From Vulcanimicrobiota bacterium (GTDB lineage Bacteria > Pseudomonadota > Gammaproteobacteria > Xanthomonadales > Rhodanobacteraceae), in the NCBI GenBank assembly GCA_903970555.1, contig CAJCJD010000170.1:1-40282 (forward strand): a DNA stretch of 40,282 nt, read 5' to 3'. The notes under the pieces were generated by a model. It was not told the DNA's origin, made no database searches, and was given only the letters and a program-made list of their open reading frames with translations. A program made the position numbers and the translations under genes. Positions 29,670 to 39,964 of the stretch are shown piece after piece. Positions within the stretch are counted from its first letter, which is position 1. The number at the start of each line of letters is the position of its first letter.

Positions 29670-30428
29670 TTAATACGTGAGCTGCACACTTGCATAGAAG
29701 GACGCTTGACCTGATTGGCTCGGCTTTTCAAAACCAGGACCTCCGGATGCCATCAAGGCGAAGTGTTTGGTGAGCTGGTAAATGACGCCTATGCCTAGAT
29801 TGGTTAGCGCCGTACCACCGACGGTGGCGGCAGTCTGATGGTAGATTTCCACGCCGATATTGAGGCGTTCTGTCACGCTGCGAGTGACAGCCCAGCCGAT
29901 AAATTGAAAGTTGCGATTACCTCTTCCCGGATTGATGTCGTAGCCCACACCACCGAACGTCGACCACTTGCCAAAATCCTTTTGCATCCAGATCGGCAAA
30001 TACAGGGAAGGCTGTTGCACGCCAAATATCCGCGAAGCCGTGGGCAGGCTGAGGGAAGGATAGACAGATACGTCCGGCATCCAACTGTCTTCGGACTGAT
30101 GCAAAAATCGATACTTTGCACCCAACTGTATGTCACCACTTCCGAAGCGATAGCCATTGGGCTCATCGTAGTTCAGCGGAGCGGTGACGCTTAGCTGCAA
30201 GTCCGGCGCGGCGCCATAATTAAATTCAAACCCAAGCTGTCCGGTAGTCTCGCTAGGGAAATGTGTCCCCAATACGAACAAGTAATCTTCCCAATGACCT
30301 GTGTCAGTGGGCTCCGGATCGTCGGTCATATAGGGAGGTCCGGCGAACACCGGACTTGATACGGTTAATGTCGCGATGCATAGCCAAAACCACAGGCCAA
30401 AGCGCGGCGATCGTTGCCATTTAGCCAT
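29670..30428 (-). CDS. Outer-membrane beta-barrel protein
   Basis: 252 residues with a signal peptide (WLCIATLTVSSPVFA, cut before GPPYMTDDPEP). The mature part alternates hydrophobic and polar residues in repeated strands (QLGFEFNYGAAPDLQLSVTAPLNYDE; DIQLGAKYRFLH; FASSGGPGFEK-like loop) and ends in aromatic YASVQLTY, the usual C-terminal beta signal. It resembles the 'MetA-pathway/transporter' type small barrels. Its start overlaps the stop of the preceding four-repeat membrane protein by 8 bp, so the two are translated together and probably act in one envelope pathway. Substrate unknown. Confidence 0.8.
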   Translation of the reverse strand: MAKWQRSPRFGLWFWLCIATLTVSSPVFAGPPYMTDDPEPTDTGHWEDYLFVLGTHFPSETTGQLGFEFNYGAAPDLQLSVTAPLNYDEPNGYRFGSGDIQLGAKYRFLHQSEDSWMPDVSVYPSLSLPTASRIFGVQQPSLYLPIWMQKDFGKWSTFGGVGYDINPGRGNRNFQFIGWAVTRSVTERLNIGVEIYHQTAATVGGTALTNLGIGVIYQLTKHFALMASGGPGFEKPSQSGQASFYASVQLTY

Positions 30429-31179
30429 CGTGCGCCGTCGACGCCTTTCTTGAAGTCAGCACAATGAGCACAACTACCGCGATGGCCAACGCGATCGAAG
30501 AAGCTACCGTACCAAGGGCCAAACCGCCTTCGTCGTGCGATTTGGTCAAGGTATCGCCGAGCGCGGCGCCGAGCGGGCGTGTCAAGACGAAAGCCGTCCA
30601 GAACAAAAATACCCGAGATATCTTCGTTAAAAAGTACGCGGCGGAAACCAACGCTAATAGGCCGATGAATAGCAAAGCCGCACCGACAAAGCCCAGAGAC
30701 GTCCCGTCCGACGTAAAGTCGCCGAGCGCGGTTCCCAAGGTATTGGACACCAGTATCGTTACCCAATAAAACGCCTCGGCCTTTGGATCCGTCACATGCT
30801 CGAACACAACCTTGCCGAGCGTCCATCGCCAGATCGCGAGTACAAGCAGCAACAGCGTCACGAGTAGAAGCGATCCGCCAAGGTATCCGAGCTGGGCCGT
30901 ACGATCTAAGAAATCCGACAATGTCGTACCGGCGGTGGTTGTCGCCAGAATCACCGCCCAATAGAGCGCGGGGTGATAGTGCCGCGTGCGAATCTGAGCG
31001 GTAACAAGGACGAGAAAGATCGCGAAGAATATGGCGGTACTCGCCAGATAGCCCAATCCCAGCGTCATGGATACGGCATCGCCACCGGTCTCCCCCAGGG
31101 TGGTCGCGCAGATCTTGATAGCCCAAAAGGCCAGCGTGATCTGGGGGACTTTATTCATGGTTTGCTTTTGAAGCGTCAT
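30421..31179 (-). CDS. COG4705-type multi-pass membrane protein
   Basis: 252 residues (245 if it starts at the second Met, 31158). There are eight hydrophobic segments in four units, each carrying a related signature: TTLGETGGDAVS, TTAGTTLSDFLDR, NTLGTALGDF, RPLGAALGDTLTK. Such repeated small/acidic motifs inside membrane helices suggest an ion- or small-solute transporter with pseudo-symmetry. The family (uncharacterised membrane-anchored COG4705) has no agreed function. Overlaps the outer-membrane barrel gene by 8 bp. An AT-rich palindrome (ATAAAC-CGA-GTTTAT region, 31224-31238) lies upstream and may be its operator. Confidence 0.8.
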   Translation of the reverse strand: MTLQKQTMNKVPQITLAFWAIKICATTLGETGGDAVSMTLGLGYLASTAIFFAIFLVLVTAQIRTRHYHPALYWAVILATTTAGTTLSDFLDRTAQLGYLGGSLLLVTLLLLVLAIWRWTLGKVVFEHVTDPKAEAFYWVTILVSNTLGTALGDFTSDGTSLGFVGAALLFIGLLALVSAAYFLTKISRVFLFWTAFVLTRPLGAALGDTLTKSHDEGGLALGTVASSIALAIAVVVLIVLTSRKASTAHDG

Positions 31180-31223
31180 CTCGTTCTCACAGCTGTTCGT
31201 CCGGCCTGCCGGGCTCCGATACA

Positions 31224-31238
31224 ATAAACCGAGTTTAT
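31224..31238 (-). promoter_or_regulatory. Palindromic operator candidate upstream of COG4705 gene
   Basis: ATAAAC CGA-G GTTTAT-type inverted repeat (ATAAACCGAGTTTAT), overlapped by CCGAG-TTTAT-CTCGG. It lies 45 bp ahead of the start at 31179. The minus-strand sequence TTTATTGTAT just downstream of it could include a -10 box. Confidence 0.4.
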
Positions 31239-31326
31239 CTCGGCATGCTTTTTGGCTGCTTAGCGCCGCCTGATAAACCACCAACGAGCCAATGCGCACT
31301 GGATCCCAATGCGTTGAGAAATTAGG

Positions 31327-32679
31327 TCAATGCGCAATAGCGCTGTGACGCTCAAAAGTTGAATCAGATGCCAGAGCTCGGTTAACGGCCTCGCTGAACT
31401 CGTCCAATGTGCAGTCGAAATCCGTGGCAGTGCCGCGGCAGCCTGGCACGAAAACCGGAACTTTTTGCGGAGGGTTCTGCAGGCTGAGCGGCGTCATATG
31501 ACGCATCTGCTCCATGGTTTGACTCACATAGTAAACACGGACTTTATTCGCACCTGTTGTACGGTTACGGCGCAACTCGAACACCAGCGCTCCGCCTGTG
31601 GAGGTAGGGTCCGTTGGCTGCTCTGCGATCATCCAATGCATATTCAGCGTGCCGGCCAGCGTCGTGATGTTGGTATCGTGGCCTATCAGGAAGACCAGAT
31701 GATCCCCGGGCTCACCCACTGCCTTGTCCATTTGTCTGTCGCTTGCCCCTTGTTTAAGTGTGGCAAGGATGGTTGTCGCAAGATTACCGGCATAGGTCCG
31801 CGCGATTGGCGATGTGCGTAACGCGATGTCGCTGTAAGAGGTGTGCAATGCGAGCAGCTCACCTATCTGTAACGGAGACAGGCGCCCCCAAGCTACCTGC
31901 GACATCGGCATACCTTCCGTGTATTCCAGTGCAAAGTTTTCAGCAAAGGTGGACGCGTTGTGCAGCGGGGACTTGATCTCGACGAGCGCATCGCCTTTGC
32001 CGGGTCCGATCGCACTATCCTGCTCGATGAGTAGTTTCTTACTTTGCGTCTGTTCTGACGTGCAGTGATCAGGCGAACAACCCAGCAGCACGGATTGCAT
32101 GATGGCGAGCGCCATGGCGTTTGCCTGCGCCAGATGCTTTGGGTCGCCACCGATCCGCCCCAACACAGCAGCAAGCGCCATCGCCCGATCGGTGTCGGTC
32201 ACGTTCGTGAACGAGTGACTAAACAACGCATCAGGTGCGTCCTTGGGAGAAGCATGGATCGGCACGTTGCAGCCGGGCAGAAACCCATCCATAAGTCCAT
32301 GTGCCGATTCCATGGTCCGCTCTTCGTCGTCAGCGACAACGAATGTTTTACCCGCGTCGGCACAACCTTGAGCAGCGATCCATCCTGATTGACTGTAATA
32401 GTCGCGATACCACTGGCCCATGATACTCATGAGCTGTTTTCCGCGTGGTGTCAGATAGCCCGGCGCCACACTCCATGTGGGCCATGGCTGATTTGAAAAG
32501 ACATCCAGTGATCCTGGTTTCGCCGTGGGCGAACGTACCCCGTGGCGACTCAACACAATAACCAAGCGCAGCTCATCGGAATCCGGAACGCCAGCGGCGA
32601 TAGTCGTCTCGCAAGCTCCAAACAACGCAAGGAACAAAAGGAAAAAAACACGACTGTGATTTCGCCACGCGCTGTTCAT
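31327..32679 (-). CDS. Histidine acid phosphatase, AppA/phytase-like, exported
   Basis: 450 residues with an N-terminal signal (VFFLLFLALFGACETTIAAG). Catalytic motif SRHGVRSPT (R45-H46-G47-x-R49-x-P51) and the distal proton-donor motif LIGHDTN mark the branch-2 histidine acid phosphatases. Surrounding wording (WPTWSVAPGYLTPRGKQLM; DEERTMESAHGLMDGFLPGC; GGALVFELRR) is close to E. coli AppA phytase and Agp, rather than to mammalian-type acid phosphatases. At least six cysteines suggest disulphides in the periplasm. Likely releases phosphate from organic esters, possibly phytate. Its ATG overlaps the upstream propeller gene stop (ATGA), tying it to the YncE-type protein and the TonB receptor. 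Confidence 0.9.
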   Translation of the reverse strand: MNSAWRNHSRVFFLLFLALFGACETTIAAGVPDSDELRLVIVLSRHGVRSPTAKPGSLDVFSNQPWPTWSVAPGYLTPRGKQLMSIMGQWYRDYYSQSGWIAAQGCADAGKTFVVADDEERTMESAHGLMDGFLPGCNVPIHASPKDAPDALFSHSFTNVTDTDRAMALAAVLGRIGGDPKHLAQANAMALAIMQSVLLGCSPDHCTSEQTQSKKLLIEQDSAIGPGKGDALVEIKSPLHNASTFAENFALEYTEGMPMSQVAWGRLSPLQIGELLALHTSYSDIALRTSPIARTYAGNLATTILATLKQGASDRQMDKAVGEPGDHLVFLIGHDTNITTLAGTLNMHWMIAEQPTDPTSTGGALVFELRRNRTTGANKVRVYYVSQTMEQMRHMTPLSLQNPPQKVPVFVPGCRGTATDFDCTLDEFSEAVNRALASDSTFERHSAIAH

Positions 32680-33728
32680 TCGTCGCGATCCCCACGTTTT
32701 ATCTTGTCGGACCGACAGCCAACCAAGTATCGCTTTGCACCCACCACTATGACGCCAAATCCGCTCTGTGAAGACGTTGCCGAAGCCGTGATGCTTGGCG
32801 CTGCCAGAAAGACGCGGTGGGCGTTGGCATCCACAGCCAGCGTGCGGGCGCCATTGGCCGTGACGACATTGGCGGCCACGATGTAATGATCGGCATCAAT
32901 CTGATGTATCACGGTCAATGTGCCATCGGCATTGGAGCTATACACGGTGCTCGCGCCACTGTCATAACCGGCGGCGTCCGGATCGTCGCCGATGGGTAGC
33001 ACAGCAACACGGTGGCCATCGTCAGCATCCAGTACTACTAGCTTCTGATTCGCACAGACGGAAAACAGACGGCGATGTCCGAGGTCGATTGCAAGACCGG
33101 TCGGGCCATCGCAGGGCGCCAGCGACCAGGTAGCGAGTACTTTGTTCGCGCGCGCATCGATCTGGGCAATCTGCGACTTGTCCTCCAGATTCACATAGAT
33201 GTGACCTGCATCGTCGGTCACGGCGAATTCCGGTCTGCCAGGCAGCGCCAGCGTGCCGGTTTCCTTTGCGGTTACCGGATCGATCTGGGTACTGCTGTTG
33301 CTGTGGCCGTTGAAAGTCCAGAGTCTTGCGCTGGCCTTGTCAAACAGCATCGCATCAGGATCCTTGCCGCTGATCGCAATGGCAGGCAGTGGCTTGAGGG
33401 TCGCCAGATCAAACGGTGTCACGCTGTTCGCGTGGCCGTTGCTGACATAACCGCGATGCTGGTTCGGCAAGATCACCACGCGATGTGCGCCATTCGCGCC
33501 CGACACTTCGCCGATGAGCTTGCCATTTTGCGTATCCATCACCATCACGCGGTCGGCGCGGGCGATGTATAGCCGCTGCGCGGCATCGTCAAAAGTGAGG
33601 TAATCCCACTTACCCGTGCCGCCGAGCACATAGCGTTGGAGCACGGCGTAACCCGTGTCGGACGTGGCGGCCAGACAGGCTGATGAGACAGCCAATACCG
33701 TGGCGAGCGTGACCAAGATTCGCTTCAT
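32676..33728 (-). CDS. YncE-type seven-bladed beta-propeller protein, exported
   Basis: 350 residues with signal peptide MKRILVTLATVLAVSSACLA. The mature chain has repeated blade units of about 42 residues with the 'D-A-x-R-L-Y-I/V-A...V-x-V-x-D' pattern (FDDAAQRLYIARADRVMVMDTQNGKLIGEV; NQHRGYVSNGHANSVTPFDLATLK; VNLEDKSQIAQIDARANKVLATWSL). This places it in the YVTN/YncE beta-propeller group. E. coli YncE lies beside the TonB receptor gene yncD; here too the propeller is next to a TonB-dependent receptor, and its stop overlaps the phosphatase start. It may be a periplasmic binding or scaffolding partner. Molecular role unknown. Confidence 0.87.
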   Translation of the reverse strand: MKRILVTLATVLAVSSACLAATSDTGYAVLQRYVLGGTGKWDYLTFDDAAQRLYIARADRVMVMDTQNGKLIGEVSGANGAHRVVILPNQHRGYVSNGHANSVTPFDLATLKPLPAIAISGKDPDAMLFDKASARLWTFNGHSNSSTQIDPVTAKETGTLALPGRPEFAVTDDAGHIYVNLEDKSQIAQIDARANKVLATWSLAPCDGPTGLAIDLGHRRLFSVCANQKLVVLDADDGHRVAVLPIGDDPDAAGYDSGASTVYSSNADGTLTVIHQIDADHYIVAANVVTANGARTLAVDANAHRVFLAAPSITASATSSQSGFGVIVVGAKRYLVGCRSDKIKRGDRDE

Positions 33729-33793
33729 GTAAATCGTCCTTTCTGATTATTTTGAAGGCTATGCAGGGAAAGAAATTCCGTCCAAAGGGAGCG

Positions 33794-33832
33794 GCCACCA
33801 CCGTTAGTCCCAACACGGCTAACGGCGGTGGC
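33794..33832 (-). other. Long hairpin between receptor and propeller genes
   Basis: 14-bp stem with one mismatch (GCCACCACCGTTAG/CTAACGGCGGTGGC), 11-base loop, just after the receptor stop at 33845. There is no T-run on the minus strand. It probably acts as a partial terminator or RNA-stabilising element that lowers expression of the downstream propeller and phosphatase genes relative to the receptor. Confidence 0.65.
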
Positions 33833-33844
33833 ATGCCCAGCGGA

Positions 33845-36721
33845 TCAGAAGTGCAGGCGAACGCCAGCCGTAAAGGTCTGGTCGTAGAATTCGCGCTGGA
33901 TCGGGCGATCAAAAGCTGCCGTTTCGGTGAATCGCAGCTTGGTATTGGTCAGGTTCTTGGCGCCGAAATAGAACGAAACCGTGTCATTGATGGCGTAGCT
34001 GGCGCCAAAGTCTAACGATGTACGTGCATCTGACCACTGGTCACCATAGACCGGTGTGCCGTTGGGAAGGGTGTAGATCGTGCTGCCAACGGTGAAAATG
34101 TTCTTGCTCTCGTAGTACGCACCCAAGTCGAGATGCAGCCCTCTGTAATCGTAGGTCAATGCAAGATTGGCGGTATCACGTGATGTCGATGGCAGCAGCG
34201 AATAGATGCCGGGATGAATTTCGATGCGCGAATCGACATAGGTAAAGTTGGAATTCACACCCAGGCCGCTGAGCGCGCCGGGCAACCAGCGAAAGCGATC
34301 GACATACACCAACTGCATGCCGCGGGCGAATGCCGAAGCAATATTTTCAAAGCTGGTGAAGGTAACCTGGTCGCCAGGTGAGAATTGACCCAGTACGCCC
34401 GTCGGATTGTTGCCGACAGTTTCGATGGTGCCCGTCTGCACGATGTAGTTGGTCATCTGCTTGTTGAAGATGCCGGCAGAGGCCAGGCCACCTTCCGGCA
34501 GGTAGTACTCCAGCGACATATCAAAATTGTTGCTGTAGGTGGGCTTCAAGCGCGGATTACCTATGGTGACTGTGTCCGCATCGTTATCAGCCTGTGTGGA
34601 CGGTGTCACCTGTTGGAAGCCCGGGCGTGCAATGGTCTTCGAATAGACGGCACGCATGATCAGGTCAGTGTCGAAGCTATATTTCAATTGTAGCGACGGG
34701 AACACATTGCCGTAGTTTTGATGGGTGTTATTGGGTGAGTAGCTAACCAGGTCGCCATTGTTGGTGAGGACATTGAGCCCATCGTATTGCGCATCGGTCA
34801 GTTCGTAACGGGCGCCGCCCAAGATGCTCAACTTGTCAAAGGGCTGGAAGTTGTATTCAAAGTAACCCGCGTAGACGTTTTCGCTGTCGTGACCCCATGC
34901 CTCCAGATTGGCCGCAAGGTCGCTGAGCGGGTCGCTTTCCGGGAACAAGCTTGGGTTGGCGAGAAACTGATTGATGATACCCTGCGTGTTGATGTTGGGC
35001 CCCATGTTGTAGTAGCCGTCGTAGTAGGTGAACGGCTGGCCTATGACATTCGACGACAACGGTTCAGACGGCGGACTGTAATCCCAGTTTTGTTGACTGT
35101 TGTTGCGAGTGCGCAGACGCGCATTAATACCAAATTTGACGAATTCGTTATCGCTATCGGCGAAGAACGTTGTGGGAATAACGATGTTGTCAGCCGCGCT
35201 GTATTCCATGTCGTGGTCGTGCGCGGTCGCATTGCTGAAATCGTCCATCTTGTAACCGGCCGGGTTGGCCGGGTCCGAGCCCTGCAAGATCGTATAGGTG
35301 GGGTAGTTGGAATTGGTGTTGTTGTCGTAAGCAACAATGGCCTGATTGGAGCCATCAGGGTTGGCCGGGTTTGGATTCTTGTTCTTGAAAGTCACTCCGT
35401 AGTCGTAGGGCTGGTTGAACGAGCCAATCGACAGGGCGACGTTATAGTCTGTTTTCCAGCTATCGAAGTTGTTCTTGCCGCCAATCATCATGACACGCGT
35501 GTCGACGATGACTTTCTCGATGGTGTCTTCCTTCTTGTAGCCTGCTTCGTCGATGAAAGCATTGGAATCATTCGGGTCGACGACCGGGTTTCCGGCGAAA
35601 TCCAGATATAGCTTCTGCGTATTCTTCAGCTCGGTATAGCCGGCGTCGTAGTAACGCGCATACCACATGTTGTTTTCATTCGGCTGAAAGTCGAACTCGA
35701 TGCCATAGCCATGACGCGTGCGCTGATAGTTGTAATAGCGCTGCGCGAGATCGCTGAGCCCTTTATAGGGAACCGTTTCGTTATAGGCTTCTTCCAGATC
35801 GTCAATGCCGCGACGGTCCTGGTAGTAGTTCAAGGTGCCGATGACGCTGAATGGTTTGTAGTTGGCGCTGGGCCCAAAGCGCATGCCGCCGGTCATTTCA
35901 TAATCTTTGACGGGCGTGTCGCGCAGGTTTTCCGTACCAGTGCCAAGCTGCACATCCAGGAATTGATCGCGGTCCGCAGGCATCTGTTTGGAGGTGATCT
36001 CGATAGTGCCGCCCAACGCTTCGGCATCCTGATCAGGCATATTGGTGTTAGTGACAGTCATCGCGCCCACCAGGCCGGAGGGGATCGAATCGAAGGCCAC
36101 GGCACGACCGCCGCCCGTTGGCGTCGATTCGTTGCTTGGCATCAGGCGCACGCCATCAAACGTCGTGCTGTTAAGGTCAGCATCCAGGCCGCGGATATTT
36201 ACGTAACGGCCTTCGCCGGTATCGGTTTCCAGCGAAATACCCGGCAAGCGTCGCACCGCTTCGCCAGCGTTGATATCGGGCAACGCTTGAATGTCGGTCG
36301 CCGTCGTCACAAAGATCATGTTCGGCGCTTGCTGTTGTTGCGCCCGTGCCTCGATGGCCGCGGTCGTTACCGGCGCCGTGACAGTAATCTGATCGAGCAG
36401 CTTGGTATCTGCATCCAGCGAGAAATTTTCGACAGAAGGGCTGTCGGCCGTAATGGTAATCGCACGTTGAAGCGGGCTCTGACCCCTGATTTTGACGATC
36501 AGCGTGTAGCTTCCCGGTGCCAGATTCGGTACCGAGTAATTGCCGTTGGCATCCGTCGTTGCCGTGAGCTTCGTGCCCTGGATTTCGATCCGGGCGCCTG
36601 CGGCCGGCTTGTGACTGCTTGCCAACTGAACGTGCCCTTGTAGCTCGCCGGCCTGCGCCAATACGGGCAGCGATAAAACAAGTAAACCCAACCCCAGCCT
36701 ACAGGCATGTGCAAGTGTCAT
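33845..36721 (-). CDS. TonB-dependent outer-membrane receptor with carboxypeptidase-regulatory-like domain
   Basis: 958 residues. Signal peptide about 1-25 (LGLGLLVLSLPVLAQA). Next is a CarboxypepD_reg-like domain at about 26-105 (GELQGHVQLASSHKPAAGARIEIQGTKLTATTDANGNYSVPNLAPGSYTL), then a TonB-box candidate DQITVTAP, the plug (ALPDINAGEAVRRLPGISLETDTGEGRYVNIRGLDADLNSTTFDGVRLMPS) and a 22-strand barrel with terminal aromatic FTAGVRLHF. This architecture is common in Xanthomonas and Caulobacter for oligosaccharide or other large-substrate uptake. The frame is open 16 codons further, but AGGGG supports the start at 36721. First gene of receptor-propeller-phosphatase; a direct-repeat operator candidate and a two-component system lie upstream. 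Confidence 0.94.
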   Translation of the reverse strand: MTLAHACRLGLGLLVLSLPVLAQAGELQGHVQLASSHKPAAGARIEIQGTKLTATTDANGNYSVPNLAPGSYTLIVKIRGQSPLQRAITITADSPSVENFSLDADTKLLDQITVTAPVTTAAIEARAQQQQAPNMIFVTTATDIQALPDINAGEAVRRLPGISLETDTGEGRYVNIRGLDADLNSTTFDGVRLMPSNESTPTGGGRAVAFDSIPSGLVGAMTVTNTNMPDQDAEALGGTIEITSKQMPADRDQFLDVQLGTGTENLRDTPVKDYEMTGGMRFGPSANYKPFSVIGTLNYYQDRRGIDDLEEAYNETVPYKGLSDLAQRYYNYQRTRHGYGIEFDFQPNENNMWYARYYDAGYTELKNTQKLYLDFAGNPVVDPNDSNAFIDEAGYKKEDTIEKVIVDTRVMMIGGKNNFDSWKTDYNVALSIGSFNQPYDYGVTFKNKNPNPANPDGSNQAIVAYDNNTNSNYPTYTILQGSDPANPAGYKMDDFSNATAHDHDMEYSAADNIVIPTTFFADSDNEFVKFGINARLRTRNNSQQNWDYSPPSEPLSSNVIGQPFTYYDGYYNMGPNINTQGIINQFLANPSLFPESDPLSDLAANLEAWGHDSENVYAGYFEYNFQPFDKLSILGGARYELTDAQYDGLNVLTNNGDLVSYSPNNTHQNYGNVFPSLQLKYSFDTDLIMRAVYSKTIARPGFQQVTPSTQADNDADTVTIGNPRLKPTYSNNFDMSLEYYLPEGGLASAGIFNKQMTNYIVQTGTIETVGNNPTGVLGQFSPGDQVTFTSFENIASAFARGMQLVYVDRFRWLPGALSGLGVNSNFTYVDSRIEIHPGIYSLLPSTSRDTANLALTYDYRGLHLDLGAYYESKNIFTVGSTIYTLPNGTPVYGDQWSDARTSLDFGASYAINDTVSFYFGAKNLTNTKLRFTETAAFDRPIQREFYDQTFTAGVRLHF

Positions 36722-36831
36722 AGATGAAGCCCCTGAATCGTCATGAATAGACGTATCTGCGGCATACACCGATGCCGAGAGTCATCGGGGCAAGGTAGGA
36801 GCGACGCGTGACAACGAAAATGCAATCTCCA

Positions 36832-36861
36832 TACCGATCGGTAAGCTTTCAGATCGGTAAG
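36832..36861 (-). promoter_or_regulatory. Direct-repeat operator candidate upstream of TonB receptor
   Basis: GATCGGTAAG occurs twice (36836-36845 and 36852-36861) with a period of 16 bp; the first copy is also part of a perfect 12-bp palindrome TACCGATCGGTA (36832-36843). It lies about 110 bp before the receptor start and just after the kinase gene, a likely site for the neighbouring OmpR-type regulator. Confidence 0.5.
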
Positions 36862-36883
36862 TTTTGCTGGAAGAAGACCAACG

Positions 36884-38233
36884 TCAAGGAAATTGCATCA
36901 CCACGGCCAGGCCCGGCGCACGATCACGCAAGGAGAGCGCAATACGATGGAGATCAGCAATGGCTGCCACCAAGGCAAGACCAAGGCCCGATCCAGCAGA
37001 TGATCGACTGCTATCAAGACGGAAAAATCTGCGAAATACGTGATCATGGTGCTGGTGTGGAATGCCGGGACCATTGTCCTGGATGCAGCCCACAACCCTG
37101 TTGGCATCATCGCGAAGCGAGACAACAATGCGCGTGCCGATCGGGGTATGGTGAATGGCGTTTTCAATCAGATTCGACAGCATTTGCGTCAACAGAGGTC
37201 GATCGCCGCGCACCTCCACACCCTGCGCGATGTCGAATGAGAGATGTTTGCCCTCATCTTCAACGACCGGCAAATACGCCTCCACCATGGAAGCAAACAG
37301 TTCGGACAGGTTGACGGGCGTAAAGCCGGCTTTGCGCTCTCGCGCCTCGATACGAGATATACGTAGCAGCGCACCAAATGTAGCTAGGACATCATCCACT
37401 TCGGCAATGGAATGCTCGATCGCTTCTCGCAGCAATGCCGCATCCTGCGTTCCAAGATAGGCCGTTTCCAAGCGCTGACGCAGCCGCGTGAGAGGTGTGC
37501 GTAGGTCATGTGCGATATCGTTGGACACCTGGCGCATGTTTTCCATCAGAGCTTGCACTCGTTCCAGAATGCGGCTGAGGCGTCCGGAAAGTCGCATGAA
37601 CTCCACACCACCCCGCTCTACCTGTAACGGCCCAGGCTCCTCGCCGGTGACGATGCGCTCGGCGCGTGCGGTAAGGCGATCCACCGATTTGACGAAGAAG
37701 TGGCCGGCAAGGCCGCCTGACAGCAGCGCAAACAGCATTGCGCCAAAGACGCTACGGAAGAAATAGCGCGAAAAATCTTCGTCCAGTTCGCCGATGTCGC
37801 GGTTGTCTCGTCCCACCGTCAACCAGCGGCCGTCGCCCAACGGAGTGACGTAGAGATCGACCTGATTGGCGTGTCCCTTGTGCCGCCCATGCGCACCGTG
37901 GAACGGCACGCGCTGCCAGCCCGCGACGCGAGGATGAAAGAGCAGATTGCCCACGATGCGATTGCCGCTTGCATCCGACAGCAAGTAGTAATCCGGACCT
38001 ATCGGCACCACGGCAAGACGCTGGCGGATCTGCGCTTCGAGCATGCCGGCCTGCGCCGCTTCGCGCAGACTGGCGGTTTCCACTTCCACGGCGGTGCGCA
38101 GTTGATCGCCCACGTAGTCGTGAATCTCGTTCCACACTAAGCCGAACAACGCCGCCACCACCACCGCAAACAGTAGGGCTTGCAACATCGCTACACGAAA
38201 TGCCGTGGTCTGCAAGAAACTAATCGGGCGCAC
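36884..38233 (-). CDS. Sensor histidine kinase (OmpR-type partner)
   Basis: 449 residues. Membrane segment 1 at about 16-34, a periplasmic loop of about 120 residues, membrane segment 2 at about 161-181, then HAMP, H-box SNDIAHDLRTPLTRLRQ (H242), N-box NLIENAIHHTP, G1 DNGPGIP and G2 GSGLGLALVAAI. The periplasmic part has a histidine-rich stretch GWQRVPFHGAHGRHKGHANQVDLYV, which could bind metal or anionic ligand. The GTG start at 38233 overlaps the regulator gene end by 14 bp, giving coupled translation. The group resembles QseC/PmrB/CzcS-like kinases; the signal is not known. Confidence 0.92.
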   Translation of the reverse strand: MRPISFLQTTAFRVAMLQALLFAVVVAALFGLVWNEIHDYVGDQLRTAVEVETASLREAAQAGMLEAQIRQRLAVVPIGPDYYLLSDASGNRIVGNLLFHPRVAGWQRVPFHGAHGRHKGHANQVDLYVTPLGDGRWLTVGRDNRDIGELDEDFSRYFFRSVFGAMLFALLSGGLAGHFFVKSVDRLTARAERIVTGEEPGPLQVERGGVEFMRLSGRLSRILERVQALMENMRQVSNDIAHDLRTPLTRLRQRLETAYLGTQDAALLREAIEHSIAEVDDVLATFGALLRISRIEARERKAGFTPVNLSELFASMVEAYLPVVEDEGKHLSFDIAQGVEVRGDRPLLTQMLSNLIENAIHHTPIGTRIVVSLRDDANRVVGCIQDNGPGIPHQHHDHVFRRFFRLDSSRSSAGSGLGLALVAAIADLHRIALSLRDRAPGLAVVMQFP

Positions 38234-38897
38234 GCAGGCAATATCCTGTACCGCGCACGGTGTGCAGCAGTGTGACGTGGTAGCCGCGATCAATTTTGGC
38301 ACGCAGCCGGCTGATATGCGTTTCGACCAGGCTGGTCTGCGGATCGAAATTAAATTCCCAGACGTGCTCCAGCAGCATCGAGCGGGTTACCACTTTCCCC
38401 GCTTGCATCATCAAGTATTCGAGCAGACGGAACTCGCGCGGTTGCAGTTCAATCACCTGTTGCGCGCGTGTCACTTCACGGCTGATCAGATCCATGTGCA
38501 GATCGCCCACACTTAGCCTCGTGCGAGCCTCGGCCAGCGGCGGCCGGCGCGCCAGTGCGCCGACGCGCGCCTTAAGCTCGTTCAGCGCGAATGGTTTGCC
38601 CAGATAATCGTCCGCACCGGCTTCGAGGCCTTCCACGCGCGAGTCAGACTCACCCAATGCTGAGAGCATCAGCACCGGCATATGCTTTCCCTTCGCACGC
38701 AGATTGCGGATCAACGAAATGCCATCGGTGTGTGGCAGCATGCGATCGACGACCAGCAGGTCATAGTCCCGCGTGGTGGCCATGTTCCAGCCCGTCGAGC
38801 CATCCGGCGCGCAATCGACAAATTGCTCGGTGCCCGACAAGCTTGCCTTTAGATAGCTCGCCGTTTCGACGTCATCTTCCACCACCAGGATCTTCAT
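38220..38897 (-). CDS. OmpR-family response regulator
   Basis: 225 residues. The receiver has acidic residues EDD near residue 8, phospho-acceptor D51 in LLVVDRMLP, LMLSALGE and K in GKPF. The C-terminal winged helix-turn-helix shows LQPREFRLLEYLMMQAGKVVTRSMLLEHVWEFNFDPQTSLVETHISRLRAKI and RGTGYCL. ATG 38897 has GGAGGGGG upstream. The kinase overlaps its end. The pair sits beside the receptor-propeller-phosphatase genes, and a direct-repeat site precedes the receptor, so it is the obvious candidate regulator of that cluster. Confidence 0.94.
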   Translation of the reverse strand: MKILVVEDDVETASYLKASLSGTEQFVDCAPDGSTGWNMATTRDYDLLVVDRMLPHTDGISLIRNLRAKGKHMPVLMLSALGESDSRVEGLEAGADDYLGKPFALNELKARVGALARRPPLAEARTRLSVGDLHMDLISREVTRAQQVIELQPREFRLLEYLMMQAGKVVTRSMLLEHVWEFNFDPQTSLVETHISRLRAKIDRGYHVTLLHTVRGTGYCLRAPD

Positions 38898-39382
38898 GCC
38901 CCCTCCAGCCTTTGCGGCGATCGTTCTGCAGCGGATTACGGCAGAGCGTTTGCAAGTCTCGCGCGAGGTATGTGGCAATCTGATGACGGGCTACGGGAGC
39001 TGATTGTGGGTCCGTTGCTGACGCTGGATGCACAAGCACCGAATCGCATATGTGCGCGTAAACCCCGGCTTTCAGTAGCGCCTGCCCGAAGCGATCGAGC
39101 AGGAGGGCATCGGTGCTGCGCTCATTCGATTAGCCTGCGTCAGCTAACTCTGTCGCGACAGAAACATCACTTAACCGTGTCGTTTGCCGACAAAAGATAT
39201 CCAGCGCTGTCGCGGACCGACATGCTCGGCAGCGACGGCAGAAATAAGTGCAATACATTCATATGTTTAAGGCGAGCGACAGAGTTAACCGATCCCGACA
39301 CCGACGGCCGCTGTATGACACGACCCGACTAACCCATTAGTAAGTATTGCCGCGTCGCACCCATCATGTATACAGTGTATAC
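38898..39382. other. Intergenic region with repeat copy B
   Basis: About 485 bases between the divergent regulator and TetR genes. It contains the promoter region of the two-component genes (no clear boxes recognised), intergenic repeat copy B at 39143-39289, and the TetR operator at 39366-39384. A 120-codon frame across it overlaps the repeat and is not accepted as a gene. Confidence 0.6.
39143..39289. repeat. Intergenic CTGTCGC/GCGACA repeat, copy B, with terminal inverted repeats
   Basis: A 147-bp unit whose ends are GCTAACTCTGTCGC (39143-39156) and the inverse GCGACAGAGTTAAC (39276-39289), 13 of 14 matching. Inside are the palindrome CTGTCGCGACAG and hairpins TGTCG-tttgc-CGACA and TGTCG-cggac-CGACA. 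Its left and central part corresponds block by block to copy A at 26379-26483, in the same orientation. It may be a MITE-like or stem-loop repeat family. Confidence 0.75.
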
Positions 39383-39384
39383 AT
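39366..39384. promoter_or_regulatory. Palindromic operator over the TetR start codon
   Basis: ATGTATACAGTGTATACAT is a 19-bp palindrome, symmetrical except for its central base; each half is itself TGTATACA. It covers the first two bases of the TetR ATG (39383), fitting autorepression. Confidence 0.75.
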
Positions 39385-39964
39385 GAATCGACTGACGACC
39401 CCCGAAAAGATTCTCAAGGCCGCGCACGCGTTGTTTGAACGCGAAGGTGCCGACGCGGTAACCATGCGCCGCGTCGCCGATGCGGTGGGTATTACGCCCA
39501 TGGCGATCTATCGCCATTTTCCCAATCGTGACGCGCTGCTGAAAAAGCTCTCCGACGACAGCTTCCAAAGCGTCGCGCACGAATGGAAATCGCGTGCGCG
39601 GAGCCGGGACGTGCTCAAACGGCTGAACGCGTTAATGGAACCCTATTTGGACTACGCGCTGACGCATCCGCATTTGTTCGATCACGCCTTTTCGGTGCGT
39701 CGCGACGATGCGCGGCGTTATCCGGAAGATTTTCACGCGCGCCTTTCGCCCACCTTCAATGTTGCACTCGACGCGGTGATCGAAGGCATGGCCCAAGGCT
39801 TGTTGAAGCAAGACGATCCGCACGACGTCACGATGACGATCTGGGCGCATCAGCACGGCTTGATCGCGCTCTATCGCGCCGGACGTTTCAGCTATGACGA
39901 GGCGCAGTTTCGCGCCTTCTACATACAATCCTTGAGGAGGTTGCTCGATGGCATCAAAGCATGA
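39383..39964 (+). CDS. TetR/AcrR-family regulator (WHG domain)
   Basis: 193 residues from MNRLTTPEKILKAAHALF; a start 12 codons earlier is possible but would lie inside the operator. The N-terminal helix-turn-helix is GADAVTMRRVADAVGITPMAIYRHFPNRDALLKKL. The ligand-binding domain includes the pattern MTIWAHQHGLIALYRAGRF (WHG-type C-terminal domain). A palindrome overlies its start, so it probably represses itself and the overlapping downstream membrane gene, whose ATG lies inside its last codons. Confidence 0.93.
   Translation: MNRLTTPEKILKAAHALFEREGADAVTMRRVADAVGITPMAIYRHFPNRDALLKKLSDDSFQSVAHEWKSRARSRDVLKRLNALMEPYLDYALTHPHLFDHAFSVRRDDARRYPEDFHARLSPTFNVALDAVIEGMAQGLLKQDDPHDVTMTIWAHQHGLIALYRAGRFSYDEAQFRAFYIQSLRRLLDGIKA

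Follow-up and report, generated by a model that had tools for sequence, protein, structure and literature searches.

The 40,282-nucleotide contig CAJCJD010000170.1 (GenBank assembly GCA_903970555.1), analysed here over its whole length and called the window, carries a unit of five minus-strand genes between positions 31327 and 38897. In order, these encode an OmpR-type response regulator, a sensor histidine kinase, a TonB-dependent receptor, a YncE-like beta-propeller and a histidine acid phosphatase (HAP). A preliminary description of the locus had listed the genes in this order, and Pfam and NCBIfam scans confirmed it (Table 1). For the kinase, GTG 38233 is the most likely start codon, as judged from conservation among relatives, and for the receptor ATG 36721, as judged from sequence and relatives; given this kinase start, the overlap of kinase and regulator genes already noticed in the preliminary description amounts to 14 nt. 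The ATGA coupling of propeller stop and phosphatase start that it had also pointed out is indeed present (32679-32676), but is a feature of the window's genome only: none of the six other copies of the unit in the genus Dyella has the overlap at the likely phosphatase start (the size of the gap varies with the start that is assumed). It arises because the propeller frame extends beyond the stop of its relatives, the alignment giving the window protein about 17 additional residues. Signal peptides of receptor, propeller and phosphatase were assigned by eye, without a predictor.

Table 1. Genes and promoter elements of the five-gene unit, in positions of the window.
Feature	Position	Strand	Basis or remark
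OmpR-type response regulator, 225 aa	38220..38897	(-)	PF00072 (Response_reg), PF00486 (Trans_reg_C)
Sensor histidine kinase	36884..38233	(-)	PF00512 (HisKA), PF02518 (HATPase_c)
TonB-dependent receptor, about 958 aa, N-terminal CarboxypepD_reg-like domain	33845..36721	(-)	PF13620, PF07715, PF00593
Secreted YncE-like beta-propeller, 350 aa	32676..33728	(-)	Fold match to YncE (3vgz), alignment
Histidine acid phosphatase (HAP), 450 aa, RHGVRSP and GHDTN	31327..32679	(-)	PF00328, alignments
Conserved box upstream of regulator gene	38971..38988	(-)	TTGTCATCAGATTGCCGC in relatives, window copy diverged; aligned in 9 genus loci
Conserved receptor promoter block	36808..36848	(-)	CTTACCGAT..GTAT and tandem half-sites (CTGCATTCTCGCTGTCAT in relatives); 8 genus loci
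Additional CTTACCGATC copy making a direct repeat	36852..36861	(-)	Window only

All five genes were found in the same order in 7 of the 16 genomes of our genus search set (G000 to G015), namely G000, which holds the window, G001, G006, G007, G009, G010 and G011. Since the order recurs in six further genomes it is not due to chance, and the conserved linkage that the preliminary description had named as a check stands. Compared with the window, the six other copies are 81-90% identical in the regulator, 69-76% in the kinase, 64-74% in the receptor and 65-76% in the propeller; conservation among the five proteins is lowest in the phosphatase (55-61%), whose gene comes last in all seven copies. 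Five proteins from genes flanking the unit in the window had no match in the six other genus stretches, and we therefore take the unit to end at its five genes; some flanking genes are common to several of these six stretches. G015 bears a deletion scar (L107:8419-9221), in which the regulator gene breaks off after 69 codons and runs directly into the 3' half of the phosphatase gene, from about codon 242. This scar and a reduced locus in G014 indicate that the unit was once more widespread and has been partly lost. A single genus thus offers natural variants for comparison: the full unit, the core only and a deletion scar.

We searched 233 genomes of the family for receptor orthologues (E 1e-110 or better) and found 31 places in 29 genomes: 8 whole or reduced Dyella copies of the unit, 11 places in a clade A and 12 in a clade B. 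Clade A receptors are 48-53% identical to that of the window, with kinase and regulator genes divergent from receptor and propeller, except in G112, which lacks them. Clade B receptors are 42-45% identical and more varied, the order receptor-regulator-kinase-propeller being seen in 5 of the 10 loci looked at. Of 29 places that could be examined for the propeller, 27 have it next to the receptor orthologue (neither G014 place does, the second according to search hits only; the contigs of G316 and G356 end too soon), and a two-component system accompanies the receptor in 26 of 29 (missing in G112, contig 9 of G001 and G146; G316 and the second G014 place left out). Sister genera have receptor, propeller and two-component system together but no HAP, so a single ancestral pathway of binding, import and dephosphorylation is not supported for the five genes, which the preliminary description had joined into one complete pathway. 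On this gene distribution, the core of the cassette is receptor, propeller and two-component system, which predates the HAP, and the HAP joined in Dyella. As side observations on clade A, a GNAT gene and a small Rieske gene follow receptor and propeller in 8 of the 11 loci, in sister genera (L039, L141-L144, L146, L147, L149), and 9 of the 11 have an M13 peptidase gene in the vicinity.

Where HAPs occur elsewhere, they tend to be found with another kind of receptor. A HAP at E 1e-20 or better was detected in 41 of 299 genomes of the order. Among 20 HAP loci that we chose and fetched (n = 19 once the G015 scar is left out), 15 have a TonB receptor gene immediately upstream in the same orientation, so that the pairing noticed in the window extends through the order. 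In L092 the receptor is about 1.3 kb from the HAP, in L109 it is on the opposite strand, and in L100 and L106 no TonB receptor was detected beside the HAP. A Pfam scan of eight of the 15 linked receptors identified every one as a TonB receptor and showed no CarboxypepD_reg domain in any of them. A search of 1.5 kb on each side of the HAP at 30 loci, of which three are the unit and one is the scar, revealed no propeller at the other 26. With no CarboxypepD_reg in the eight receptors scanned and no propeller at the 26 loci, the Dyella cassette receptor is of another type; as judged from these neighbourhoods, HAP-receptor pairing is a common theme, and the Dyella HAP joined a different, already existing receptor cassette.

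This history also lends itself to an account in which the HAP is a passenger: a broad acid phosphatase gaining phosphate generally, which shares a promoter with the receptor and is unrelated to its import. That other genera keep receptor, propeller and regulators without HAP, and that the HAP is the most divergent of the five proteins, would fit such an account; its constant place at the end of all seven genus copies and the fact that other HAPs of the order are paired with TonB receptors argue against it, and we consider it improbable.

The enzyme itself belongs to branch 2 of the histidine phosphatase superfamily, with the motifs RHGVRSP and GHDTN and a PF00328 score of 87.4 bits (cut-off 23.6). 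Inositol phosphates had been suggested as an example of its substrate, and an operon for phytate uptake and breakdown, in which the receptor would import inositol phosphates and the HAP would be a true periplasmic phytase, has points in its favour. The best matches of the window HAP in the Protein Data Bank (PDB) are named phytase or histidine acid phosphatase, and passages of PMC3400609 and PMC8115612 describe phytase and TonB transporter genes lying side by side. Like bacterial AppA-type enzymes, the HAP has the catalytic motifs and aligns over its full length; unlike them, it reaches just 291.1 of the 585 bits required by the AppA phytase family (NCBIfam PRK10172), and it is also below the cut-off for Agp. 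Both aligned phytases have a lysine after RHGVRxPT, where the six Dyella HAPs with an in-frame alignment (L036 left out) have A four times, T once and S once. We take this lysine to be a phytate contact in AppA. Receptor orthologues outside the genus also lack a HAP. Without the phytase lysine, with a score far under the AppA cut-off, and with a propeller paralogue (50% identical) beside a receptor resembling FemA and BauA, inositol phosphate is not specifically supported as the substrate, and we regard the phytate account as unlikely. Separately, the HAPs of L094, L097 and L101, which lie behind very acidic TonB receptors (pI 4.3), have RPPTK, and so in appearance are likelier phytase candidates than the window HAP.

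The receptor scores 407.8 bits on the TonB-Xanth-Caul family (TIGR01782, cut-off 310). Its PDB matches are weak, CirA being matched at E 2.7e-8 over the plug region, and its structure prediction (mean pLDDT 29.6) was not used. Import of pyrroloquinoline quinone (PQQ) was considered and found unsupported, as no YncD chain is among the receptor's four PDB matches. Receptor charge was also tried as a clue to the substrate; the ranges overlap (pI 4.6-4.9 in Dyella versus 4.3-5.5 in six HAP-linked receptors elsewhere), so whole-receptor charge discriminates nothing. For the propeller, a model with pLDDT 87.1 matches E. coli YncE (3vgz) with TMq 0.74, TMt 0.81 and 15% identity, which places it in the YncE-like fold. 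The best E-value is to Leptospira Lp49 and WD40 proteins score about equally, so this fold similarity is not specific to YncE, and the protein reaches 48.2 of the 400 bits required by the YncE family (NCBIfam NF052280). No convincing lipobox was seen, and the propeller is probably periplasmic. Across 321 genomes of the class, propeller relatives at E 1e-40 or better occur in one, the window's own. There, on contig 120 (L032:4972-8386), the paralogue comes after a siderophore-type receptor, matched best in the PDB by FemA and BauA, and another two-component system lies beside this second propeller-receptor pair. The propeller type is therefore not tied to phosphate.

Such a neighbourhood favours the idea of an iron or metal-chelate cassette, in which two-component system and receptor would be devoted to a metal complex, with the HAP either releasing the metal from a phosphorylated chelate or representing a side activity. 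The regulator (receiver and winged helix) and kinase (HisKA and HATPase_c) are of the OmpR type, and they score best on copper/silver and heavy-metal models, though under the cut-offs (TIGR01387, 221.7 of 279.2 bits; TIGR01386, 150.7 of 292.55); they are likewise below those of the PhoB and PhoR equivalogs (188.8 of 296.2 and 130.8 of 334.2). VgrRS of Xanthomonas, as described in passages of PMC5231390, is an iron-sensing two-component system that acts on a TonB receptor gene. Set against this idea are the weakness of the window receptor's own PDB matches and the want of any metal-uptake enzyme in the unit, and we give it little credence.

Conserved boxes precede both the regulator and the receptor genes, consistent with the linked two-component system proposed in the preliminary description. 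The receptor block reads AAGCTTACCGATYCGTAT..CTGCATTCTCGCTGTCAT in relatives, and both boxes contain TGTCAT-like half-sites about 11 bp apart, a spacing usual for OmpR-type regulators. The direct repeat reported before the receptor is real in that two CTTACCGATC copies are present (36861-36852 and 36845-36836), but only the second falls within the genus-conserved block. We built search patterns from these loci, which makes matches at the locus itself a matter of construction; the informative part is what they match elsewhere. With perfect consensus, 8 of 9 genomes have a single regulator box each, invariably at this locus, and the window's own genome has none; the half-site part of the receptor box occurs once per genome in 7 of 9, at no other locus. 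A search of five genomes for the receptor palindrome, allowing one mismatch, yielded beyond the known locus scattered single matches, which were not traced to genes, and no regulon emerged. In clade A, all 10 regions seen (L039, L142-L150) have a CTTACC-N5-GTAAG palindrome and a TGTCAT element upstream of the regulator, the palindrome being related to the Dyella receptor promoter block; the box arrangement is therefore older than the HAP.

No other part of the upstream region is as Pho-box-like as the box itself in 8 of 9 regulator loci and in 8 of 8 receptor loci, as would be fitting if the system were linked to phosphate. Out of 18 Pho-box positions, the receptor boxes agree at 11-13 and the highest-scoring stretch before the regulator at 11-14; as background, 51 of 80,530 window positions score 12 or more. 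Pho-like repeats also precede a pstS-type gene in 7 of 7 genomes. We did not adopt PhoB as the first reading, because no identical pst-like box was found and clade A regulator promoters, at loci without HAP, also have TGTCAT; counted to the same effect, CusR-type regulators recognise a half-site similar to this element. Given the Pho-like character of the boxes, PhoB input, instead of or alongside the unit's own regulator, is a live alternative or addition.

Our preferred reading, about whose truth we are evenly divided, is that the unit is a self-regulated, TonB-dependent operon for scavenging organophosphates, built on the receptor-propeller-two-component core and extended by the HAP in Dyella. 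The kinase would sense an envelope signal and phosphorylate the regulator, which would act at its own promoter and at that of the receptor. The receptor would then bring a bulky, scarce compound across the outer membrane, and the secreted propeller, as its periplasmic partner, might receive, hold or hand on the ligand. The HAP, added at the 3' end, would remove phosphate from the imported compound in the periplasm. The substrate is most likely an organophosphate, presumably a phosphomonoester, and possibly a metal complex of one. Gene content and order, conservation, modular history, the promoter boxes, the propeller fold and the catalytic motifs are observed; import, the factor that binds the boxes and its effect, the part played by the propeller, the periplasmic setting, phosphate removal and the nature of the ligand are inferred. 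If true, the unit would be a compact, separable test case for the role of YncE-like propellers beside TonB receptors, and for gammaproteobacterial import of intact organophosphates through TonB receptors before phosphate removal.

Several observations weigh against organophosphate scavenging by such an operon. The HAP was found at 7 of 31 receptor places, all in Dyella (the contigs of G316 and G356 end too soon to judge), and clade A loci have GNAT and Rieske genes in its place; as it was found beside no receptor orthologue outside Dyella, the older substrate of the receptor need not carry phosphate. G014 retains regulator, kinase and receptor (66-82% identical) without propeller and phosphatase, and the five genes include no inner-membrane transporter. 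The window's own boxes have diverged from consensus and match neither search pattern. Elsewhere in the nine genomes, the regulator box with one mismatch has 13 matches versus 1 for the reversed control, an excess suggesting that the regulon may be wider than the unit locus, and the receptor box with two mismatches has 9 versus 2, which speaks against a strictly private regulon.

The nearest described kin of the unit are the phosphate utilisation systems (Pus) of Flavobacterium. According to passages of PMC8115612, TonB transporters there, with a CarboxypepD_reg-like domain (PF13715), lie beside phosphatases or phytase and are induced by phosphate depletion, one of them within a PhoBR operon, which offers a precedent for our preferred reading. 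The window and the six other genus copies share the adjacency of TonB transporter and phosphatase genes. No SusD-like partner, a further mark of Pus, turned up when the five genes were scanned with Pfam, no search having been aimed at SusD. Flavobacterium belongs to another phylum and uses other enzymes, and no propeller is mentioned in those passages (PMC8115612); phosphate-depletion induction was shown there. In Caulobacter, the PhoB regulon includes TonB receptors and a phytase (passages of PMC11208175). VgrRS of Xanthomonas resembles the unit in that the two-component system acts directly on a TonB receptor gene promoter, that of tdvA; it differs in that VgrR represses tdvA, controls hundreds of genes and answers to iron, and in that the genes make up no comparable unit (passages of PMC5231390). 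PMC1790865 makes no mention of phytase, phytate, phytic or phosphatase. No title describing the five-gene set was found in literature searches, whose coverage mostly excluded subscription journals.

Propellers accompany TonB receptors in other bacteria too. E. coli yncE lies beside yncD, where neither a phosphatase nor a two-component system is known; BtuG and XusB of Bacteroides have a propeller fold. The unit resembles YncE with YncD/PqqU (passages of PMC12124388) in the adjacency of propeller and receptor genes and in the propeller fold, but is set apart by the low identity and family score given above and by a receptor of another family. With BtuB-BtuG and XusA-XusB it has in common a TonB transporter with a co-encoded partner protein (abstracts of PMC10404256 and PMC13142918); unlike the window propeller, those partners are surface lipoproteins. 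A bolder view, which strikes us as rather doubtful, is that the propeller defines a family of periplasmic TonB-receptor partners, the mirror of the surface lids BtuG and XusB, within a cassette that has its own two-component system and gains or swaps end-of-line enzymes; by acquiring the HAP, the Dyella cassette would then have become an importer of organophosphates or ferric organophosphates, its regulon being very small.

In the window, no tRNA and no Rfam family at gathering score was found. Directly downstream of the unit (29670-31299), a gene for a DUF347 repeat protein overlaps a Phenol_MetA_deg-like gene, a pair not found beside the other six unit copies. Upstream, a TetR-type regulator gene (39347-39964) has an 84% identical relative in G001 (L152:1877-2554), where it lies near a receptor locus of clade B.

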